A stretch of DNA of 9,679 nt from Candidatus Desantisiibacteriota bacterium (GTDB taxonomy: Bacteria; JACRDZ01): contig JACQWU010000217.1 in assembly GCA_016209155.1 (NCBI GenBank), forward strand, positions 1-9,679. The letters run 5' to 3'. Below are positions 2 to 9,152 of this stretch, piece by piece (positions within the stretch are counted from its first letter, which is position 1; each line of letters starts with the position of its first letter). Position numbers and translations under genes: made by a program. The notes beneath the pieces were generated by a model. It searched no databases, was not told where the DNA came from, and worked only from the letters and a program-made list of their open reading frames with translations.

Positions 2-184
2 CCTACAATATTTAAAAAGTTTATTGATATGCCGGGGAGGGTTGTTTATGATGGGAATAAATTTTTCATAAAAATAAGGAAAAGAGCACATACTCCGGTT
101 TTACTGGAAGTTGAAAAATTAAAAGTTCCGTTTAACATACCGTGGCTTGATGGGAAATCCGTTGAAATTGTTTGGACAGCATAA
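2..184 (+). CDS. C-terminal end of a probable transposase (partial, 5' end outside window)
   Basis: An open frame enters from the left edge and runs for 60 residues to a TAA at 182-184. The fragment is basic, with KIRKRAHTPVLLEVEKL in the middle and the ending PWLDGKSVEIVWTA. From memory this resembles the extreme C-terminus of DDE-type transposases common in AT-rich anaerobes, but the catalytic residues lie outside the window and the exact IS family cannot be named. The stop is only 13 bases before the next gene. That leaves no space for the 3' non-coding end and terminal inverted repeat an intact insertion sequence would have, so the element is probably decayed or its right end is lost. An unrelated gene co-transcribed with the downstream pair is the alternative. 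Confidence 0.45.
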   Translation, partial: PTIFKKFIDMPGRVVYDGNKFFIKIRKRAHTPVLLEVEKLKVPFNIPWLDGKSVEIVWTA

Positions 185-197: not shown

Positions 198-1871
198 ATG
201 CTGGATAACCCATCTGTGAAAATCGGTGTTAAAGAATCTGGGGATTATCTTTCAGGTGAAGCATTGGGATACAGAGTTGATGAATGGAAAAACCTTTTTG
301 TATCAGAATTTCTGGCAGTACGCGATATACTCAGTAGAAATATTACAATACTGACCGGAGCTCGTGGATGTGGAAAAACCATGTCCTTTAGAAGACTTAC
401 TGTTTTTATGGACAAATTAATAGAAGAGCCTTCAGGAGTTCCTGGGGCCGATCAATTTATTGGTTTTTACGTTAACTGTAGAGATCTAGTTGAGGCATTC
501 CCTTGGCTTCCTCCAAAACTAAAGATAGGAACACAGCAGCAGATTATTCATTATTTTCATCTTTTATGGTTTAATGAGATTTGTAAAACTTTGGCAATAT
601 GCAGATCTAATAAAAATGAAAACTATGATTGGCTTAATAAATTTATGGTTAATTTATTAAACGACAAATATCAAGCTCTTCCTGTTGACGCTGATGTAAT
701 ATCACATGTGAAGGCTTTTATTGAAACTGAGAAGGAACGGTGCCGTCTTGCAGATTTTGGAAAGGTAAGCGGTTTTGATGCCTGGCCATTTGCCCGGCTT
801 GATTTTCTTGATATTATTCAAACAGAAATTGAAGATAATGTATCATGGATAGGTAAAAAGCCATTCTATATGTTTCTTGATGATTATACCGTACCTATTG
901 TTCAGAGACAAGCTTTAAATGGAAAACCATTTGAACTCCATCATGATTTTGAATTAGTGGATTTAGCGACAGAAAGCCTTTATCAGAGTAAAACCGAAAA
1001 ATTCAAGCTTTTAGATAATATTTTTAAGCCTAGAATAGACCGACATGATGCACTGAAAGGAAAAAATATGGGTTTATTGGATATCCTCGGGAAGATGGAA
1101 TATGATAACAATGACCTTGCATGGAAAATGCGTAAATCTGATGATAGGGAACGCATATTTTATAGTGGTGCAGATGCGTTTGTTGGTATGTGGTCAAGCG
1201 ATATAAGAATTATGATTCAAATGTTTGTAGATATGTTACGTGATGCCAATGGAGAATTAAAAAAAGAAAACTTTGTTGTATCAAAAACAATTCAGGATAA
1301 GACATATAGAAGCCAGGGTGGTGAATTCCTTGGATTTGCAGAATCTGCAAGTAGCCCGTTAGCATTGGGGAAAAAATCAAAACCAAATGCTACTAAAGTA
1401 CGCTATGGGACTCATTTAAAAGATATAGTTGAAACTTTTATTTCTATATCCCGATTCGAGCTTATCAAAGGGAACATGGTTAAAAATGAAGATAGAGAAA
1501 ATCCAAAACAAGCTTTTCGATTAGAAATTATTGACAAATTTGAACTATCTGGTCAGGTTTTTGATTATTTTGAGGGTTTAGTGCGTTGGCATCTTTTTCT
1601 ACAAGATTGGCGTGGTAAAAGTGTGAGAGGTATGATTACTCCTAGGCTATATTTAAATAGAGTTCTCATTCCTTTTGCTAATCTGACATTTTCAGGTCAC
1701 GACAACATACAACTTAGAAACGATGAATTTATAAGTTTATTGGAAAAACCAAAAGAATTCATGTCTTATTGGATAGGAAAAAGAAATGAAAAAAGAATGA
1801 AAAGACAACAGATAGAACAGCAACAGCTAGAGATATTCGATATTTCACATGAAGGAGGGAATAAAAAGTGA
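198..1871 (+). CDS. P-loop AAA+ ATPase, ORC/CDC6-like; first gene of a candidate two-gene defence or signalling module
   Basis: This 557-residue protein has no signal peptide or membrane segment and should be cytoplasmic. A Walker A motif, GARGCGKT, lies at residues 54-61 after a hydrophobic strand (ITILT). A Walker B, FYMFLDDY, lies at 223-230 with tandem acidic residues D228 and D229. Residues 322-347 (centre WSSDIRIMI, Arg337) look like an AAA+ lid with a sensor-2-type arginine. Residues 405-510 could be a winged-helix region, and RGMITPRLYLNR at 477-488 looks like a conserved block. The last 30 residues are highly charged and glutamine-rich. Only about 20 residues separate the Walker B from GKPFELHHDFELVDL, so the usual sensor-1 strand is hard to place; an in-frame deletion near base 918 is possible. 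The stop overlaps the next gene's start (GTGA), implying translational coupling. ATP hydrolysis is well supported by motif; a defence role is inferred from context only. Confidence 0.75.
   Translation: MLDNPSVKIGVKESGDYLSGEALGYRVDEWKNLFVSEFLAVRDILSRNITILTGARGCGKTMSFRRLTVFMDKLIEEPSGVPGADQFIGFYVNCRDLVEAFPWLPPKLKIGTQQQIIHYFHLLWFNEICKTLAICRSNKNENYDWLNKFMVNLLNDKYQALPVDADVISHVKAFIETEKERCRLADFGKVSGFDAWPFARLDFLDIIQTEIEDNVSWIGKKPFYMFLDDYTVPIVQRQALNGKPFELHHDFELVDLATESLYQSKTEKFKLLDNIFKPRIDRHDALKGKNMGLLDILGKMEYDNNDLAWKMRKSDDRERIFYSGADAFVGMWSSDIRIMIQMFVDMLRDANGELKKENFVVSKTIQDKTYRSQGGEFLGFAESASSPLALGKKSKPNATKVRYGTHLKDIVETFISISRFELIKGNMVKNEDRENPKQAFRLEIIDKFELSGQVFDYFEGLVRWHLFLQDWRGKSVRGMITPRLYLNRVLIPFANLTFSGHDNIQLRNDEFISLLEKPKEFMSYWIGKRNEKRMKRQQIEQQQLEIFDISHEGGNKK
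1852..1858 (+). promoter_or_regulatory. Strong ribosome binding site deciding the GTG start at 1868
   Basis: AAGGAGG lies inside the 3' end of the ATPase gene, 9 bases before the GTG at 1868. It is a near-perfect Shine-Dalgarno sequence and supports both the GTG start and coupled translation of the two genes. Confidence 0.8.
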
Positions 1872-2917
1872 GTTTTCCTTCAATTCAGATTGCACAAAAA
1901 TTGAACCCGAATAAAAGCCGACTTTTTATAGGCGCATATGGATTTGAAGATCGTAGATGTGGATGGTCTAACTATCAGAAAGAACAGGGAAAGATTTTAA
2001 AATCTGCTATCTTATTTAAATATGTGCGACCCAAGGGGGATAATAAAATTATTGAAATAAAAAAATCCCTAAATAAAATAGGAATTTTACGTCCTATTGA
2101 AATAAACTATGATGTAATGGAACCATCTAATATAGAAAATAATATTAGGAAAAAGCTAAAAAATGTTTTAGATGGTATTGAAGAAGTCATAGTTGATATA
2201 TCGACTATGACTAAATTGTCCATTCTTGTATGTTTATGCAAACTTGTAAATTTTAATGGAACGTTAAGAATTATTTATACAGAAGCTAAAGATTATGCTC
2301 CAACAAAGAAGGAATATGAGGAATATAAAGAGTCCATGAAAAAAATTGCTAAATTTCCAAGCCAAGGATTTGAAACAATTATAAGAGTAAAGTGCTTAAG
2401 CAGTATTAGAATGCAAGGACAACCTGTGACAATGATAGCATTCACATCATTTAATGAACAGCTTATCAGTCATATGATGGGAACAATAAATCCACATAGA
2501 CTTTTATTTATTAATGGTAGACCACCGCGAAAAGATTTTTCCTGGAGAGAAATAGCAACCTATGAAATTTATAAAGAGCTTATTGAGGAATATCCTGCCG
2601 GTAATCCTATTAATAAAGAAGGATTACTTGAACGTGTAGCAAGTACGCTTGATTACAAAGATACAATAGACAATATTAATGAGATTTATAATAAGTATGG
2701 CAACCATGAAAGGATTATTTGTACTGCAACGGGCAGTAAGATGCAAACTGTAGGATTATTTTTCAGTAAAATGCTACATCCTGATATACATATAGAGTAT
2801 CCTACTCCTGATAGTTATTTTGTAAAACGTACTGCAGAAGGCATTCAACAAGTGCATGAAATTGTGATAAAACATTTTTCAGAATTTATTAAAAATGAAA
2901 GACTTAAGATAAAATGA
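1868..2917 (+). CDS. Protein with two tandem CARF-like Rossmann halves; partner of the AAA+ ATPase
   Basis: This 349-residue soluble protein starts with GTG and overlaps the ATPase gene by 4 bases. I do not recognise a named family with certainty. The N-terminal half opens with a strand and the block FIGAYGFEDRRCGW (residues 20-33). It then has EVIVDISTMTKLSILVCL (106-123) and a closing strand LRIIYTEAKDY. The second half repeats this plan: VTMIAFTSFNEQL (187-199), LLFINGRP (212-219), RIICTATGSKMQTVGLFF (282-299) and IHIEYPTPDSY. The two STMTK/TGSK turns after a hydrophobic strand resemble the TGGTK ligand-binding turn of CARF domains in CRISPR-associated sensors. This suggests an intramolecular dimer that binds a nucleotide or another small ligand. 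No nuclease motif or membrane segment is obvious, so the output may act through the ATPase or through an uncharacterised activity of either half. The fold assignment is inference from motifs and predicted strands. Confidence 0.6.
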   Translation: MSFPSIQIAQKLNPNKSRLFIGAYGFEDRRCGWSNYQKEQGKILKSAILFKYVRPKGDNKIIEIKKSLNKIGILRPIEINYDVMEPSNIENNIRKKLKNVLDGIEEVIVDISTMTKLSILVCLCKLVNFNGTLRIIYTEAKDYAPTKKEYEEYKESMKKIAKFPSQGFETIIRVKCLSSIRMQGQPVTMIAFTSFNEQLISHMMGTINPHRLLFINGRPPRKDFSWREIATYEIYKELIEEYPAGNPINKEGLLERVASTLDYKDTIDNINEIYNKYGNHERIICTATGSKMQTVGLFFSKMLHPDIHIEYPTPDSYFVKRTAEGIQQVHEIVIKHFSEFIKNERLKIK

Positions 2918-2988: not shown

Positions 2989-3231
2989 ATGACTACACTT
3001 ACAACCAGCGAGGCAAGGGCTCAGCTTTATAAATTGGTGGATAAAACTGCTGAATCACATGAACCTATTCAAATAACAGGAAAAAGGAATAAAGCTATTT
3101 TAATTTCTGAAGGAGATTGGAGGGCTATTGAAGAAACCTTATATCTTTTATCGATTCCCAAAATGAGAGAATCTATTCGAAAAGGACTTAAAACATCCAT
3201 AGAAAAATGCAGTAAGGAATTAAAATGGTAA
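2989..3231 (+). CDS. YefM/Phd-family antitoxin
   Basis: This 80-residue protein neutralises the adjacent YoeB-like toxin and should repress its own operon. The N-terminus, TTLTTSEARAQLYKLVDKT, is the typical YefM/Phd fold start, a short strand then a helix. It continues with the basic turn ITGKRNKAILIS, the EGDWRAIEETLYLLS helix and a C-terminal tail containing GLK and ending KELKW, which would wrap around the toxin. Its length is normal for the family (about 75-90). The gene overlaps the toxin gene by 7 bases, the usual antitoxin-first order with translational coupling. An in-cis palindrome and a strong ribosome binding site precede it. The family assignment is firm; the exact subtype name is less so. 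Confidence 0.9.
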   Translation: MTTLTTSEARAQLYKLVDKTAESHEPIQITGKRNKAILISEGDWRAIEETLYLLSIPKMRESIRKGLKTSIEKCSKELKW

Positions 3232-3491
3232 ATTGGCAGATTGTCTTTACAAAACAAGCTCAAAAAGATGCCAAAAAACTTTCTGCTTCAGGACTCAAAC
3301 CCAAAGCAGAGAACCTTCTTAATATTTTAAAAGAAAATCCTTTTAAGCAGCCTCCTTCTTTTGAAAAATTAGTCGGAGATTTGGCCGGAGCTTATTCACG
3401 GCGAATCAATATTCAACATCGACTTATTTATCAGGTTCTGACTGAAAAAAAAACAGTAAAAATAATCCGCATGTGGACGCACTATGAATAA
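3225..3491 (+). CDS. yoeB: YoeB/Txe-family toxin, ribosome-dependent mRNA endonuclease
   Basis: This 88-residue toxin belongs to the RelE/YoeB superfamily, whose members bind the ribosomal A site and cleave mRNA. Residues matching the E. coli YoeB active site are all present: Glu47 in SFEKLVG, Arg66 in QHRLIY, and His86-Tyr87 at the C-terminus (WTHYE). The SRRIN block at 58-62 is also typical. Length compares well with the 84 residues of E. coli YoeB, so the gene appears intact and active. Its ATG lies within the last codons of the antitoxin gene. No terminator is visible after the stop; the following 90 bases are plain AT-rich sequence before an inverted-repeat element. Confidence 0.9.
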   Translation: MVNWQIVFTKQAQKDAKKLSASGLKPKAENLLNILKENPFKQPPSFEKLVGDLAGAYSRRINIQHRLIYQVLTEKKTVKIIRMWTHYE

Positions 3492-3585
3492 CCTTAAAAA
3501 ATCATGGTCTATACAAAATTTATTACTACAACTAACTTTTAGCCTAAAATGTAATAAAAAAAATGTGGACAAATGATGAAAATTA

Positions 3586-3670
3586 AACCACAGAAGCACG
3601 GAGACACAGAGAAAATAAATTATTATAAATAAAACACTCTGTACCTCTGTGCCTCAGTGTCTCTGTGGTT
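3586..3670. repeat. AACCACAGAG-type inverted-repeat element, copy 1
   Basis: Imperfect inverted arms, about 26 bases each, flank an AT-rich centre. The left arm (3586-3612) begins AACCACAGAAGCACGGAGAC, and the right arm (about 3636-3670) ends CAGTGTCTCTGTGGTT. Both arms contain degenerate internal repeats of the type CACAGAG. Similar AACCACAGAGACACAGAG repeats are scattered in many bacterial genomes, usually between genes; no encoded protein is needed to recognise them. The element fills most of the gap between the toxin gene and the yehS-like gene. Its right arm ends 38 bases before the yehS start, so it may lie in that gene's leader. Confidence 0.75.
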
Positions 3671-3695
3671 AAAAAATAAAGCTGTAGTGTTAGAT

Positions 3696-4186: not shown

Positions 4187-4221
4187 GGGCAGGTGCAAGA
4201 CCTGCCCGTTTATTTATTTTT
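4187..4221 (+). terminator. Rho-independent terminator of the yehS-like gene
   Basis: A perfect 8-base stem, GGGCAGGT/ACCTGCCC (4187-4194 and 4200-4207), with a GCAAG loop is followed by a T-rich tract, GTTTATTTATTTTTTTT. It begins 14 bases after the yehS stop. The T tract runs into the 3' end of the convergent minus-strand gene (stop at 4210-4212). Read on the minus strand the stem has no T tract, so it should terminate mainly rightward transcription. Confidence 0.88.
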
Positions 4222-5157
4222 TTTAGTTTCCTTATCAATAATAGAATCTAATTCTTTCATGAGGTTTTTGGCTCTCCATTCGGGGATTATGAACGGGTAA
4301 TTGTTTTCGCTTGAGACAGCGATATATTTATCGTCTTTTTTCTCAGCAATTGAAATTGAATAAGATTTATTGCCTTTAAGGTCAATTTTATAAATGGATT
4401 TATTAAATTCGTTTTTTGTTTTTTCTGTTACAAAATCATCACAGACCAAATGTTTTAGAGTGTTTATGAGCGTGTCAATTTCATTTCCCTTTACTTTTTC
4501 TTTCTTATCTGTTATCCACTCAGGCTGCGCGGGCATACCTGTGTTTTTTTGCTGAGTTGTATCTGAAGATACTTTTTTAGATATTTTCATTTCTTTTTTA
4601 CTGTTATTTAAAATTATTTCCGTAATATTCTCATCAAAATTCATAACTACTTTATCCCGAACATCCGAAATTTTTTTATCAAAAGTATTACGGAGATTAC
4701 CGTTTGCCTGATAAACATTAGTATCATTATCGAGCTTAACAAAAGTATGACGGTAAGAAGATGCTGTTTTACCAATATCTATCTTTAAAAGCACCTTATT
4801 GCCTGAAAATATTTCAAAATCTATTTTTTTATCTTTATCAAGGTCATACATTCCATAATTTTTTGATTCAGATACAAGCGCGGTTAAATTAAATGCGGTA
4901 ATATCCTTAACCATTGCCTCCAGTTTTTCTTTATCAGCCGGAAATTTTTCTTTATTTATATACCATTTATCATTCTCTTTTAATAATTCTATATCAGTGC
5001 CTGTTTTGTGTAACACTATTTTTGATATATCTTTTTCATTTATCTTTGCTATTTCCGGTAAATTATAGTGAGTTTTATTTTTATTGCGTAAAAAAAGAAA
5101 AACTGAAAGAGCAATAATAATTAAAATAAGTATAATATATTCCATCTTTACTTTCAT
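4210..5157 (-). CDS. Membrane-anchored DUF4340 protein of a Gld-like ABC transporter operon
   Basis: This 315-residue protein has a single N-terminal membrane segment (residues 6-23, YIILILIIIALSVFLFL) followed by a basic RNKNK stretch, with the rest predicted outside the membrane. The sequence after the anchor fits DUF4340: ISKIVLHK, the KWYINKEKFPADKEKLEAMV block at about 64-83, and YGMYDLDKDKKIDFEIF at 101-117. The domain is repetitive in this family, and later segments (residues 175-230) appear to start a second unit with EWITDKKEK. Proteins of this family are typically encoded with GldG-like proteins and ABC-2 transporters; the biochemical role is unknown. AAGGGGAG lies close (4 bases) to the chosen ATG. 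The gene is last in the minus-strand operon, separated from gldG by a repeat element. Confidence 0.85.
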   Translation of the reverse strand: MKVKMEYIILILIIIALSVFLFLRNKNKTHYNLPEIAKINEKDISKIVLHKTGTDIELLKENDKWYINKEKFPADKEKLEAMVKDITAFNLTALVSESKNYGMYDLDKDKKIDFEIFSGNKVLLKIDIGKTASSYRHTFVKLDNDTNVYQANGNLRNTFDKKISDVRDKVVMNFDENITEIILNNSKKEMKISKKVSSDTTQQKNTGMPAQPEWITDKKEKVKGNEIDTLINTLKHLVCDDFVTEKTKNEFNKSIYKIDLKGNKSYSISIAEKKDDKYIAVSSENNYPFIIPEWRAKNLMKELDSIIDKETKKNK

Positions 5158-5188
5158 TTTACTCCCCTTCCCTTTTTTATTAAAGCTT

Positions 5189-5263
5189 AACCACAGAGAA
5201 CACAGAGAAATCTTTAAATATCAATTGTAGAGACGCAAAATTTTGCGTCTCTATTCTGTGGTT
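5189..5263. repeat. AACCACAGAG-type element, copy 2, with a nested palindrome, inside the gld-like operon
   Basis: The left arm AACCACAGA (5189-5197) continues into GAACACAGAGAAA, and the right arm TCTGTGGTT (5255-5263) is its inverse. These are the same outer ends as the element at 3586-3670. It fills most of the 112-base gap between the GldG-like gene and the DUF4340 gene, whereas the other gaps in this operon are 3 and 13 bases. Its right end is 6 bases from the gldG stop (5270-5272). It looks like a later insertion that did not break either gene. Confidence 0.75.
5228..5253. repeat. 26-base perfect palindrome
   Basis: Each half is TAGAGACGCAAAA or its complement, centred between 5240 and 5241, with no loop. 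In RNA it can form a strong hairpin on either strand. There is no T tract after it on the minus strand, so a true rho-independent terminator is unlikely. mRNA processing or partial attenuation between gldG and the DUF4340 gene is possible. This motif type, GTAGAGACGCAAAATTTTGC, is from memory a widespread interspersed repeat. Confidence 0.85.
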
Positions 5264-5269
5264 CATTCT

Positions 5270-7483
5270 TTATTTCCGAAATCGAGCCTCTATTGAACGT
5301 TTTCTTGATGAACGTTTGAACCACATAACTAAACCGATTAAAATTATTAAAACCGGTAAGCCAGCAATATTTGCGGTCTTGATCTTTGTTTTTGATTCCG
5401 GTTTTATTTCTTTTAAAGGGTTAAACCGCTGAGATTTGCTGCGCATTATGGCACGGCTTTCTTTTCCGTTTAAATAATCAATAATATTTATCACAAATTG
5501 AGCATTAGGGCTTTTTGCTTCTTTATCCAGAATATTATTCTTTAGCATCTCAGACGTTCCTATAAAAAATATCCTGCCCGGTTTTATTGATTTCTCAATC
5601 ATTGAGCCTTTATTACTAATGTTTGACATATCAACACCTTCAGGCTTTTTTTCGGATTTTTTGTCATCCTTTTTATTCTTGCCTTCTTCTTTTGTTTCTT
5701 CTTTTTTCTCCTCTTTTACAGGAATTCCCTTCCCTGCGAAATAACTTGAGAATGTTCCTTCTAAAACATAAGCCAGTGCCACTTGTTTATAATTTTTTTC
5801 ATCTGCCGGAGGCTGAATAAGCATTGGATTAAGATTTATACGTCCGGTCATTTCCCATGCTTTTTCAGATGAAGAAACCAGTTTACTTGCTTTTAAACTT
5901 CCGGTCTTCACCTTCTGCTCATCAATCTCAACCGGGGATGCTTTGACCATAATTAATCCTTTGATATTGCTTAAAAATTTCATATCTTTATTAATAAAAT
6001 CATTTTTAATAATAGGTGCAAAATATATTTTCTGTTCTCCGCCGCCGAAAGCATTTGGAATTTCCTGTTTATAACAGTTCTGATCCATGACATATGATTT
6101 TTTAACATTAAAACCATAATGTTCCAATAATCTTTCGAGACCTGTATTTAAAGGAATATAAAAAGGGCCCTGATTTCCAAACATCATATTCCCCTGTTGT
6201 GGAGGCATAATCTCATTAAAAGGATCATAAAATATTGCGATATTTCTTCCCTTCATTAAAAACTGATCAATCTGGTAAAGCTCATATTCGGAAAACTGCT
6301 CTTTAGCGCCTGCAATTATTAAAGTCGGGATTCCATCAGAAATTTCTTCATTATTTAAATTGATTCTTTTTAGGGAATAGCTTTCTGAAAGCAGTGCATT
6401 AAAATTTGCAATAGAATCTGTTTCCTGTTGTCCAAACATAGCATTCTTTTTCTCAAGAGAGAGTGTCCCATGATCTGCTATATAACCTATTTCTTCATTT
6501 GTATTTATAATATTTTCCACAATCTCATTTATGCTCTTTTCAAGATCATTCATATTGGCAAGCTGGTATTGTGTACCAATAATAGGGAGTCTTATAACTT
6601 TTAGAATCTGAATTTTTTCAAATTTTTCACCGTGAACAACAACAAGGTCAATATAACCTTTCCCGCCGGGGATTTTTTCACTGCGCCTGTCTGTGAATTC
6701 ATTCCATTGTAATGACATTGCGCCATATTTTTCCGCATCCTTAACATTATCCGGAACTTGAGACGGATCTATATAAGCAAATTTAAGTTTGTCATAATTC
6801 TTTTTATTTAATTTATCTATTGCTTCCTCTATTTTTTTAGGAATTTCATTAAGTCCTGATAAGTTCATATAAGGTCCGACTGTTTGAAGTGATGAGGATA
6901 GAAACAGCTTAATCTCTATTTTGTCTTTAAGATTTAACAATGCGCTTATTTTATTGTTCATTTTCCTGATTGTTGATGTTATGTTAAATTCAAGCCCTTC
7001 TGTTGTTGTAACCGGGGGGAGAGCTTCAATTAAATCTCCATGAATAAGCACTATTCCCATAAAAGCTTTTTGAAATTTAACTTCATCCTGCTCAATGTTT
7101 TGCACCTGAACGGGATAAATACCATAGGTTTCCGCAAGCTCCTGATTCTTTTTTACTTTCTCATCCTTCTCGCTTGATACATCATAAAATTCATAATTAA
7201 AATACTTATTGCTGGATATTGAATATTCTTCAAGCAGATCATGAAGATATCGTTCTATATTGTTATATGGAGCAGGGAGTTTATTCGTAAAAAATATCTT
7301 TATTGTAAGCGGTTCGGAAAGTGTCTCAACAGCTTTTTTACTTTCTTCAGACAATGAAAAAACTTTATTATTGGTTAAATCCATGCGAAAAAACATAACA
7401 ATACTTACCACGTTAAGCAATACAACAACAATAAAATACAACAAAAATTTAGAATAACTATTAATTTTAGATTTCTTTTCCAT
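5270..7483 (-). CDS. gldG: GldG-like ABC transporter auxiliary protein
   Basis: This 737-residue protein has an N-terminal membrane segment (residues 12-33), a large periplasmic-type region, and a C-terminal membrane segment (about 706-722, LPVLIILIGLVMWF) followed by a basic tail. After the first anchor comes the family hallmark, DLTNNKVFSLSEESKKAVE, and then LTIKIFF. The large region corresponds to the ABC_transp_aux/GldG domain, with a later segment, TLIIAGAKEQFSEYELYQID, resembling a flavodoxin-like or ThuA-like fold. A lysine/glutamate-rich low-complexity stretch (residues about 590-616, bases 5636-5716) interrupts the C-terminal part. In Bacteroidetes GldG works with GldA and GldF; in other phyla similar operons occur without gliding, and their substrate is unknown. 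AGGGAG lies 9 bases before the ATG and overlaps the stop of the preceding permease gene, indicating coupling. It may be named 'Gldg family protein' in databases. Confidence 0.88.
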   Translation of the reverse strand: MEKKSKINSYSKFLLYFIVVVLLNVVSIVMFFRMDLTNNKVFSLSEESKKAVETLSEPLTIKIFFTNKLPAPYNNIERYLHDLLEEYSISSNKYFNYEFYDVSSEKDEKVKKNQELAETYGIYPVQVQNIEQDEVKFQKAFMGIVLIHGDLIEALPPVTTTEGLEFNITSTIRKMNNKISALLNLKDKIEIKLFLSSSLQTVGPYMNLSGLNEIPKKIEEAIDKLNKKNYDKLKFAYIDPSQVPDNVKDAEKYGAMSLQWNEFTDRRSEKIPGGKGYIDLVVVHGEKFEKIQILKVIRLPIIGTQYQLANMNDLEKSINEIVENIINTNEEIGYIADHGTLSLEKKNAMFGQQETDSIANFNALLSESYSLKRINLNNEEISDGIPTLIIAGAKEQFSEYELYQIDQFLMKGRNIAIFYDPFNEIMPPQQGNMMFGNQGPFYIPLNTGLERLLEHYGFNVKKSYVMDQNCYKQEIPNAFGGGEQKIYFAPIIKNDFINKDMKFLSNIKGLIMVKASPVEIDEQKVKTGSLKASKLVSSSEKAWEMTGRINLNPMLIQPPADEKNYKQVALAYVLEGTFSSYFAGKGIPVKEEKKEETKEEGKNKKDDKKSEKKPEGVDMSNISNKGSMIEKSIKPGRIFFIGTSEMLKNNILDKEAKSPNAQFVINIIDYLNGKESRAIMRSKSQRFNPLKEIKPESKTKIKTANIAGLPVLIILIGLVMWFKRSSRKRSIEARFRK

Positions 7484-7496
7484 TTATTAACGCTCC

Positions 7497-8201
7497 CTAT
7501 TTATTTTCATTTATAATAAGGTCTGTTGCATACAGCATTACAAAACTTACACTGATAAAATAAATTAAATCTCTGGAATCAACAATTCCTTTTGAGATAT
7601 TCTGAAAATGAAAATCCGCTCCAAGATATTGAAAAATATTTAAAACCTTTCCCGGTAAAAAAAACAGCATTTTGTCTATTAAAGTGAGAATACGACAGAA
7701 TGTCATCCCGATAATAAAAGCAATAATCTGATTTCTCGTTAGCGATGAAGCAAAAAGTCCGATAGCCGCAAATGATGCTCCCATAAGCACTGCTCCTATA
7801 TACCCTCCGATTACAGGTCCATAGTCAAGCTCACCGAGGAAAGAGACAAATACTGCATAAGAAATAGTCGGCAAAAGCATAACAATTAAAAAAGCAAAAA
7901 CAGCAAAAAATTTACCCAGAACAACATCAAGGTTTGTCACCGGCATTGTATATAACAGCTCATATGAACCTGTATTTATTTCTTCTGAAAACAGCTTCAT
8001 TGTTATTGCAGGTATCATAAAAGAAAAAGTTATAGGTAAAAGTTCAAAAAAATTTCTTAGTTCCGCCTGGTTATAAAGAAAAAAAGTTGCAAAGAAGAAC
8101 CAGCCCGTAATAATTAAAAAAATTGATATTACAATATAAGCGATGGGTGAAGTAAAATAGCTTTTAAATTCTCTTACGCATATATTTAAAGAATTTTTCA
8201 T
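7497..8201 (-). CDS. gldF: ABC-2 type transporter permease, GldF-like
   Basis: This 234-residue inner-membrane protein has about six predicted membrane segments (around residues 19-42, 52-70, 99-121, 131-151, 157-176 and 211-230). The block SEEINTGSYELLYTMPVTN at 72-90, between the second and third segments, is characteristic of ABC-2/GldF permeases. It should form the transmembrane part of the complex powered by the adjacent ATPase. It starts 3 bases after the ATPase stop. Its ribosome binding site, AAGGGAGAG, lies 7 bases before the ATG and inside the ATPase gene. Thirteen bases separate it from the GldG-like gene. Family placement is firm; the transported substrate cannot be told from sequence. 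Confidence 0.9.
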   Translation of the reverse strand: MKNSLNICVREFKSYFTSPIAYIVISIFLIITGWFFFATFFLYNQAELRNFFELLPITFSFMIPAITMKLFSEEINTGSYELLYTMPVTNLDVVLGKFFAVFAFLIVMLLPTISYAVFVSFLGELDYGPVIGGYIGAVLMGASFAAIGLFASSLTRNQIIAFIIGMTFCRILTLIDKMLFFLPGKVLNIFQYLGADFHFQNISKGIVDSRDLIYFISVSFVMLYATDLIINENK

Positions 8202-8204
8202 TGT

Positions 8205-9140
8205 TTAACTCTCCCTTGTTAATTCTCTGAATATTGTTTCGAGTGTCCTTGATTCAGTATGAAATTCTAAGATAATTGAATCTGTATTCTTAATTTTTTT
8301 ATAAATTTCAGACCGGATATCGTTTTTGGTTTTACATAAAATATTAAAATCCACTATTTTGTCTTTTGTACTTTTTAAAACAACATCTTTTATCTCAGAA
8401 ATATCATTCAAGGATTTTTTAATATCGTTAAACTCGGCATTTAAAAGAGAAATATGGATTAAATAATCACTGCTGTTTTTTTCCTTAAGTTGTTCGGTTG
8501 ACCCGTCAGCAACGATCTTCCCTTTATTTATAATTATAATTCTATCACAGGTAGCTTCTGCTTCGCTCAAAATGTGCGTGGAGAATATAACTGTTCTTTT
8601 TTTCCCTATTTCTCTAATTATATTGCGGATATCGATGATCTGATTCGGATCAAGTCCTGAGGTTGGTTCATCAAGTACAAGAATTTCGGGATTGTTCATC
8701 ATTGCATGAGCAAGCCCGACACGCTGTTTATAGCCTTTTGAAAGCTCTATTACAGGTTTATGCATAACCTCATTAATCCCGCATAGATCCGCCAGCTCTT
8801 TGATTTGTTTTTCCTTACCAGTTTTTTCAACACCCCTTACATCTGCAACAAAATTTAAATAATCATAAACCAGCATATCAGGATAGATCGGCGCTGATTC
8901 CGGCAAATAACCAACCATCTTTTTTATTTCTAATGAATTGTCATATATGTTAAAATTTTCAAAACTTACATTGCCGGATGTTGGCTGCATATAACATGTC
9001 AAAATCCTCAAAGTAGTTGTTTTGCCGGCTCCGTTAGGTCCCAGAAGCCCTAATATTTCACCCTTTTTAATCTCAAAACTTATTTTATCAACAGCGCATA
9101 CATTATCATAATATTTTGTTAATTCCTCAATCTTTATCAA
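8205..9140 (-). CDS. gldA: ABC transporter ATP-binding protein, GldA-like
   Basis: This 311-residue cytoplasmic ATPase energises the downstream ABC-2 permease. Numbered from an upstream GTG, it has Walker A GPNGAGKT at 37-44, the Q-loop region GYLPESAPIYPDM at 80-92 (Glu where many ABC proteins have Gln, usual in the GldA-like group), signature LSKGYKQR at 136-143, Walker B ILVLDEP at 156-162, D-loop SGLDP, and H-loop His192. The remaining third is a regulatory-type extension seen in drug/polysaccharide ABC-2 ATPases. I prefer the TTG at 9138-9140, giving MIKIEELTKYY, because GAGGTGA sits 5 bases before it. The GTG at 9147-9149 would directly abut that same site and have no spacing. First gene of the operon. 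Confidence 0.92.
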   Translation of the reverse strand: MIKIEELTKYYDNVCAVDKISFEIKKGEILGLLGPNGAGKTTTLRILTCYMQPTSGNVSFENFNIYDNSLEIKKMVGYLPESAPIYPDMLVYDYLNFVADVRGVEKTGKEKQIKELADLCGINEVMHKPVIELSKGYKQRVGLAHAMMNNPEILVLDEPTSGLDPNQIIDIRNIIREIGKKRTVIFSTHILSEAEATCDRIIIINKGKIVADGSTEQLKEKNSSDYLIHISLLNAEFNDIKKSLNDISEIKDVVLKSTKDKIVDFNILCKTKNDIRSEIYKKIKNTDSIILEFHTESRTLETIFRELTRES

Positions 9141-9152
9141 ACTGCTCACCTC
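9141..9152 (-). promoter_or_regulatory. Ribosome binding site deciding the ABC ATPase start
   Basis: On the minus strand GAGGTGA is followed by GCAGT and then TTG. The spacing suits the TTG start and not the in-frame GTG that forms part of the site itself. Confidence 0.6.

Follow-up and report, generated by a model that had tools for sequence, protein, structure and literature searches.

A probable three-gene defence cassette of methyltransferase, kinase–ATPase and double CARF protein, with a probably non-functional copy in a Desantisiibacteriota genome

Comparison of gene neighbourhoods identifies two overlapping genes at the start of the window (the whole stretch of 9,679 nucleotides analysed here, which is the entire contig C142) as the 3' part of a three-gene cassette in the order methyltransferase, kinase/ATPase, double CARF protein. 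Taken as a whole, the evidence is best explained, in our view with moderate confidence, by a three-gene defence cassette with a CARF-triggered kinase effector, of which the window holds a broken copy. If this is right, CARF signalling would act through an ORC-type ATPase to drive a protein kinase, and the constant methylase would tie nucleotide signalling to DNA self-marking. Most of the CARF effectors that are best known at present are nucleases or other enzymes that degrade or modify nucleotides.

The coordinates of both genes and their 4-base overlap, as given in the original prediction, are exact. The features of the locus, all on the plus strand, are:

2..184, plus strand: transposase-like ORF, its C-terminal 60 residues, open at the contig start
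198..1871, plus strand: ORC/CDC6-like AAA+ ATPase (PF24389), 557 aa
357..380, plus strand: Walker A motif GARGCGKT, residues 54-61, with an arginine inside the P-loop
873..887, plus strand: Walker B motif FLDDY, residues 226-230; D228 and D229 in 27/27 sequences
911..912, plus strand: site of an in-frame 31-codon deletion, where the tblastn pieces 261-488 and 520-827 of the L017 protein abut
1868..2917, plus strand: double CARF protein, 349 aa, sequence intact; two Rossmann domains, no fused effector domain
2192..2221, plus strand: CARF-1 motif VDISTMTKLS, residues 109-118, after the fourth strand of its domain; D110 and I111 in 35/35 sequences
2726..2746, plus strand: CARF-2 motif ATGSKMQ, residues 287-293; G289, S290, K291 and Q293 in 35/35 sequences

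The product of the first gene had been read as a P-loop ATPase from GARGCGKT and FLDDY. Both motifs are present in the translation, and the protein matches the Pfam ORC-CDC6-like family PF24389 above its curated cut-off (E 5e-20, 72 bits, cut-off 27); the ATPase of locus L024 reaches 150 bits. Within Walker A, R56, G57 and K60 are conserved in 26-27 of 27 aligned ATPases. An arginine in the P-loop is the trait singled out for a kinase-AAA-CARF family in the passage of a 2014 survey that describes it (PMC4012209). In the closest relatives, the ATPase is fused to an N-terminal Ser/Thr kinase in proteins of about 830 aa, the aligned pieces being 57-60% identical to the fused protein of locus L017. 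This alignment identifies the window ATPase as one half of such a gene.

The other half appears to lie on a second contig of the same genome, whose assembly is fragmented (3.08 Mb, 352 contigs, 79% complete). On contig C160, a methyltransferase gene precedes a kinase gene that is cut off by the end of the contig. Alignments of the closest fused relatives extend to the last codons of this kinase and resume close to the start of the window ATPase. When the L017 protein was searched against the whole genome (tblastn), residues 6–255 were found on C160, residues 261–488 and 520–827 on C142, and nothing elsewhere; the CARF gene is single-copy in this genome. Since the pieces of the L017 protein fall on these two contigs only and the CARF gene is single, the contigs are most simply one locus, and that C160 and C142 are one broken locus is well supported by these matches. 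We infer the join itself, because no read was seen to bridge the contigs and their ends do not overlap: comparison of the C160 end with the window start found no direct overlap, no long shared word and no bridging sequence. A target-site duplication at the junction was considered as a candidate and could not be established.

The flanking fragment upstream of the ATPase gene was correctly described as transposase-like. It shares 35% identity (E 6e-8) with the C-terminal end of a DDE transposase-like protein, the product of a long ORF in another genome (G009), which matches DDE_Tnp_1_4 (PF13701) with an E-value of 2e-6, under the family cut-off. A search of plasmids with the 60-aa ORF gave no match. 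Because this transposase-like C-terminus sits at the C160/C142 junction, the kinase–ATPase gene was most likely split at its linker by a transposase-bearing insertion, which would also have broken the assembly.

A second lesion lies within the ATPase itself. Residues 489-519 of the L017 protein have no counterpart in the window ATPase (tblastn). The missing 31 residues contain Q..LN, an arginine and FFK.STE (motif Q..LN...R...FFK.STE), and the conserved positions of this segment are retained in 26/26 other ATPases aligned there. In the structural model of the L016 protein, the segment forms a helix (491-501) and a strand (508-514) after Walker B, a place that we take to be sensor 1 in AAA+ proteins. 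The window ATPase does not have a complete AAA+ core with the sensor-1 strand, and an ATPase lacking this strand is very unlikely to work. With the kinase–ATPase gene probably split and the sensor-1 strand lost, the window copy is most likely non-functional and, barring an assembly error, probably no longer works. Two lesions in one gene would fit decay following the insertion; the 31-codon deletion and the gap could also be artefacts, of assembly or of strain, in a genome that is 79% complete. As a damaged remnant, the window copy is the wrong copy to test.

The second gene was proposed to encode a double CARF-like protein. This description is right, given a confident two-domain model, a match to Can1 and near-invariant pocket motifs. 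The protein matches PADLOC CARF6 profiles over nearly its full length (E 1.2e-12), and the AlphaFold2 model (pLDDT 91.5, pTM 0.92, from an alignment of 31 sequences) consists of two Rossmann-type domains and nothing further. The closest solved structure is 6sce (Z 14.5, 240 residues, 3.7 Å), a cOA-activated DNA nuclease, presumably Can1, and the alignment covers both CARF domains of that chain. Csm6, Can2, Card1, Csa3 and Cam1 follow as the next structural neighbours, and the first unrelated folds appear at Z ~7.4. Searching the solved structures with a CARF sequence profile gave no meaningful match. What had been seen as TGGTK-like turns corresponds to ATGSKMQ (287-293) and DISTMTKL (110-117). 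Over 35 homologous sequences the motifs DIS.M(S/T)(K/R)L and TGSKMQ are nearly invariant, at positions that correspond to the CARF pocket loops. With a Rossmann-like fold and a motif after the fourth strand, the protein belongs to the CARF superfamily (CARF6 clade), and ligand binding is predicted. Domain analysis found no nuclease domain in either the ATPase or the CARF protein, in agreement with the original prediction. No close relatives of the CARF protein were found in a single-sequence scan of viral contigs or in phage records.

A toxin–antitoxin pair noted downstream is YefM/YoeB (window 2989-3491) and lies directly 3' of the CARF gene. Two intergenic stretches (window 3576-3672 and 5189-5273) with the ends CCACAGA and TCTGTGG resemble a small dispersed inverted-repeat element. 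On the minus strand, positions 4210-9149 hold a gliding-type ABC transporter cluster (DUF4340, ABC_transp_aux, permease, ATPase) that is unrelated to the system.

Scanning the genome collection and viral contigs with a profile yielded 33 CARF loci, to which a Bradyrhizobium plasmid adds one; these 34 exclude the window's own genome, and 33 could be assessed for the upstream gene (L034 was left out). In 32 of these 33 loci, the gene immediately upstream of CARF encodes an ATPase, whole or partial. At the exception, L036 (109-2087), methyltransferase pieces adjoin the CARF gene on its upstream side and the kinase-ATPase is missing from between them, which is either a deletion or a contig artefact. 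The complete cassette is present in 25 loci, always as methyltransferase – kinase–ATPase – double CARF, and in 23 of these a single polypeptide of 810–910 residues combines kinase and ATPase (exceptions: L003 and L030). At L023 and L043 the ATPase or a fragment of it is present and the 5' genes are absent, although upstream sequence exists. The two-gene system of the original prediction therefore has to be redrawn as three genes, with an ATPase that is usually fused to a kinase and a methyltransferase in front.

The pairing itself was borne out. Distance matrices of the proteins correlate strongly (Mantel r 0.96 for CARF-ATPase, 0.88 for CARF-MTase and 0.84 for ATPase-MTase; permutation p 0.0005), in a test that takes no account of shared species history. 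The hosts of the loci belong to Nitrospirota-, Verrucomicrobia- and Bacteroidota-type lineages, several proteobacterial groups, Gemmatimonadota, Binatota and Myxococcales, a distribution that is scattered over phyla and includes one plasmid and viral contigs. This wide host scatter argues against shared species history as the sole cause of the correlation. From adjacency and matched distances, we conclude that the ATPase and the double CARF protein are a real co-inherited unit.

The gene neighbourhoods, which we recorded locus by locus and not as an enrichment over background, show several copies next to restriction–modification genes. HsdM and HsdS genes lie directly upstream of the cassette at L024, and type III restriction–modification genes lie beside L028, L030 and L038. 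A DUF1156 methylase is encoded downstream at L025 and L026, where a helicase also adjoins, and the neighbours at L003 are a restriction endonuclease gene and a ubiquitin-like cluster. At many other loci the adjoining genes are of housekeeping type, for example DNA polymerase I at L016 and a Mg-chelatase-like ATPase at L035. Given this context and the kinship of its domains, the cassette probably serves in phage defence. A ThyX-type thymidylate synthase gene adjoins the cassette downstream in Bradyrhizobium and upstream in Citreicoccus (ThyX gene coordinates L003:13151-14074, L020:9150-10073 and L046:826-2259).

The enzymatic parts retain their active-site motifs across the family. In addition to Walker A and B of the ATPase, the lysine, HGD.H..N and DFG of the kinase are intact in 21–23 of 23 sequences, and the methyltransferase, an N6/N4 amino-methyltransferase (PF01555), has D.F.GSG preceding SPPY. 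The kinase matches PF00069 with an E-value of about 1e-18 in L016 and C160, and its nearest PADLOC models are mad6 (E 6e-22 in L016, 4e-22 in C160) and PD-T4-6, which we take to be kinases from phage-defence systems. A fold search with a kinase-ATPase model returned kinases only among the matches listed.

We propose that the double CARF protein would bind a small nucleotide or nucleic-acid-end signal made in infection, a step suggested by the conservation of both CARF pocket motifs. It would relay this signal to the partner ATPase, which may assemble on DNA as ORC/CDC6-type ATPases do and thereby release the kinase. The kinase would be the effector, phosphorylating host proteins so that growth stops in an abortive infection, and the methyltransferase would mark self DNA or would itself be a guarded component. 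Kinase-mediated signalling was suggested for the single-chain kinase-AAA+-CARF proteins by the authors of the 2014 survey, in its passage on that family (PMC4012209).

The methyltransferase is largely constant. Mean identity is 67% and 88% in blocks 151–216 and 243–265, strong variation is confined to residues 217–242 (19% identity), and no long hypervariable recognition domain was found in the protein. This mostly constant recognition part suggests a similar target across hosts, and the protein is a poor fit to a classical restriction–modification methylase.

Related methyltransferases also head other operons. On a Salmonella plasmid and three viral contigs, one stands in front of genes for a ParA-type ATPase and a SIR2 protein (SIR2_2; L055:8920-11979, and about 5920-8979 in each of L060, L061 and L062); the domain matches come from the Salmonella plasmid, and the viral contigs were assigned by near-identical ORF starts. 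This arrangement is a candidate for a separate defence operon. At L065 (5947-8839), a related methyltransferase precedes a GmrSD_N (DUF262) protein and another that matches HEPN weakly. SIR2, GmrSD and HEPN proteins are common toxic effectors in defence systems. Since related methylases head both ParA–SIR2 and GmrSD_N–HEPN operons, these few loci favour the methylase as a shared module and the remainder as an exchangeable weapon. It is conceivable, if somewhat doubtful, that there is a modular defence family in which a methyltransferase of this constant type has interchangeable effector cassettes as its guards or else gives protection against them, namely kinase-ORC ATPase with double CARF, ParA with SIR2, and GmrSD-like with HEPN. 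If this were true, the enzyme turned on by a CARF signal in the first of these would be a protein kinase in place of a nuclease.

The same operons bear on an alternative that we consider unlikely, in which the methyltransferase and ATPase form a modification or DNA-scanning complex of the BREX or SspC type, tuned by the kinase and CARF protein, with no abortive response. The constant methyltransferase does adjoin an ORC/CDC6 ATPase, restriction–modification genes are among the neighbours, and BREX and Ssp systems use such ATPases as scaffolds for DNA loading (PMC12839542, PMC10853773). However, PglZ, a nuclease or a helicase is never constant and only three genes recur. Moreover, the related methyltransferases of the SIR2 or GmrSD/HEPN cassettes occur without this ATPase, which argues that the methyltransferase is independent of it.

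A further alternative, which we regard as improbable, concerns the source of the signal: the system would be an auxiliary effector of type III CRISPR, its CARF protein being switched by cyclic oligoadenylate from a Cas10 elsewhere in the genome. It accords with the structural proximity of the double CARF protein to Can1, a cOA-activated effector, and with two Cas10-like palm-domain proteins of ~515-531 aa in the window genome, L053 (contig C203) and L054 (contig C291), one of them with GGDD beside a RAMP protein. L053 is the protein that keeps GGDD and has the adjoining RAMP gene; L054 reads AGDE and has a RAMP-like neighbour. Against this, a strong Cas10 match (>60 bits) was found in only 8 of the 31 genomes that carry either the cassette or its CARF gene, a count weakened as a test of consistent Cas10 presence by the incompleteness of these genomes. 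Weaker matches include cross-reactions and were not trusted, because the E. coli control also gives them. A CD-NTase (SMODS) scored above cut-off in 11 of the 31, and about half of these incomplete genomes gave no sign of either Cas10 or CD-NTase. Neither is a constant partner. As no cyclase is constant, the CARF ligand may have another origin, such as RNA ends, which have been proposed as the ligand of RtcR-type CARF proteins (PMC11090510).

That the CARF protein, ATPase and kinase form a regulator and not a weapon, controlling transcription or repair upon damaged RNA like the CARF protein RtcR, is very improbable: RtcR does combine a divergent CARF with an AAA+ ATPase and presumably detects RNA ends (related discussion in PMC11090510), but the ATPase here is ORC/CDC6-like and not NtrC-like, no repair genes recur beside the cassette, and its distribution is scattered over phyla, with plasmid and viral contigs.

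The original prediction could not match the pair to a named system; a relative has in fact been described. The 2014 survey reports a small family of single-chain proteins that combine a Zn ribbon, kinase, AAA+, CARF and wHTH (Makarova et al. 2014, PMC4012209), and the PADLOC profile PDLC01925 'CARF6--CARF_STK_AAA' matches the kinase, ATPase and CARF parts of the cassette, both window proteins included, so that modules of the same kind are present in all three parts. As far as the survey's passage on it goes, the single-chain family resembles the cassette in its three modules, their order and the P-loop arginine. It differs in that the cassette has CARF as a separate gene in all loci, two CARF domains and a methyltransferase in front, and that passage mentions no methylase (PMC4012209). 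The cassette is also not one polypeptide with the leading Zn ribbon described there; no Zn ribbon was seen in those kinase N-termini that were examined. In the literature searched, which did not extend to the main 2020 CARF classification and most subscription papers, no paper was found to give the methylase – kinase–ATPase – CARF cassette a name. The split cassette with its constant methylase thus appears to be unnamed, and the kinase–AAA+–CARF single chain was already described in 2014. No function assigned to the latter family was found in the same literature. With separate genes and a fixed methylase partner, the split form offers expressible parts and intact donors for testing the function of the kinase–AAA+–CARF combination.

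The remaining relatives share fewer traits. Like the window CARF protein, the Can1/Can2/Csm6-type effectors of type III CRISPR carry a double CARF on one chain; unlike them, the cassette has no nuclease domain, has a kinase-ATPase as partner and has no obligatory Cas10. MADS combines a methylase, a kinase and an ATPase, a theme that recurs in the cassette. The resemblance to mad6 is at the kinase level only, and the cassette has three genes with a CARF sensor and no constant mad1-mad8 set. We rejected MADS as the home of the system, as only three genes recur and not the eight-gene mad1-mad8 operon. BREX type 2 / Pgl recalls the cassette with its methylase, kinase-bearing PglW and ORC/CDC6 ATPases (PMC12839542). 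In contrast to it, the cassette has a CARF sensor and no constant PglZ, BrxC-type scaffold or helicase; BREX was likewise rejected, the PglZ, BrxC/PglY and PglX core being absent among the constant members at the loci. On a viral contig, L059 (5851-8421), a distant kinase-ORC ATPase protein has Zn-ribbon-like N-terminal cysteines and is probably a single-chain relative cut by the contig end.
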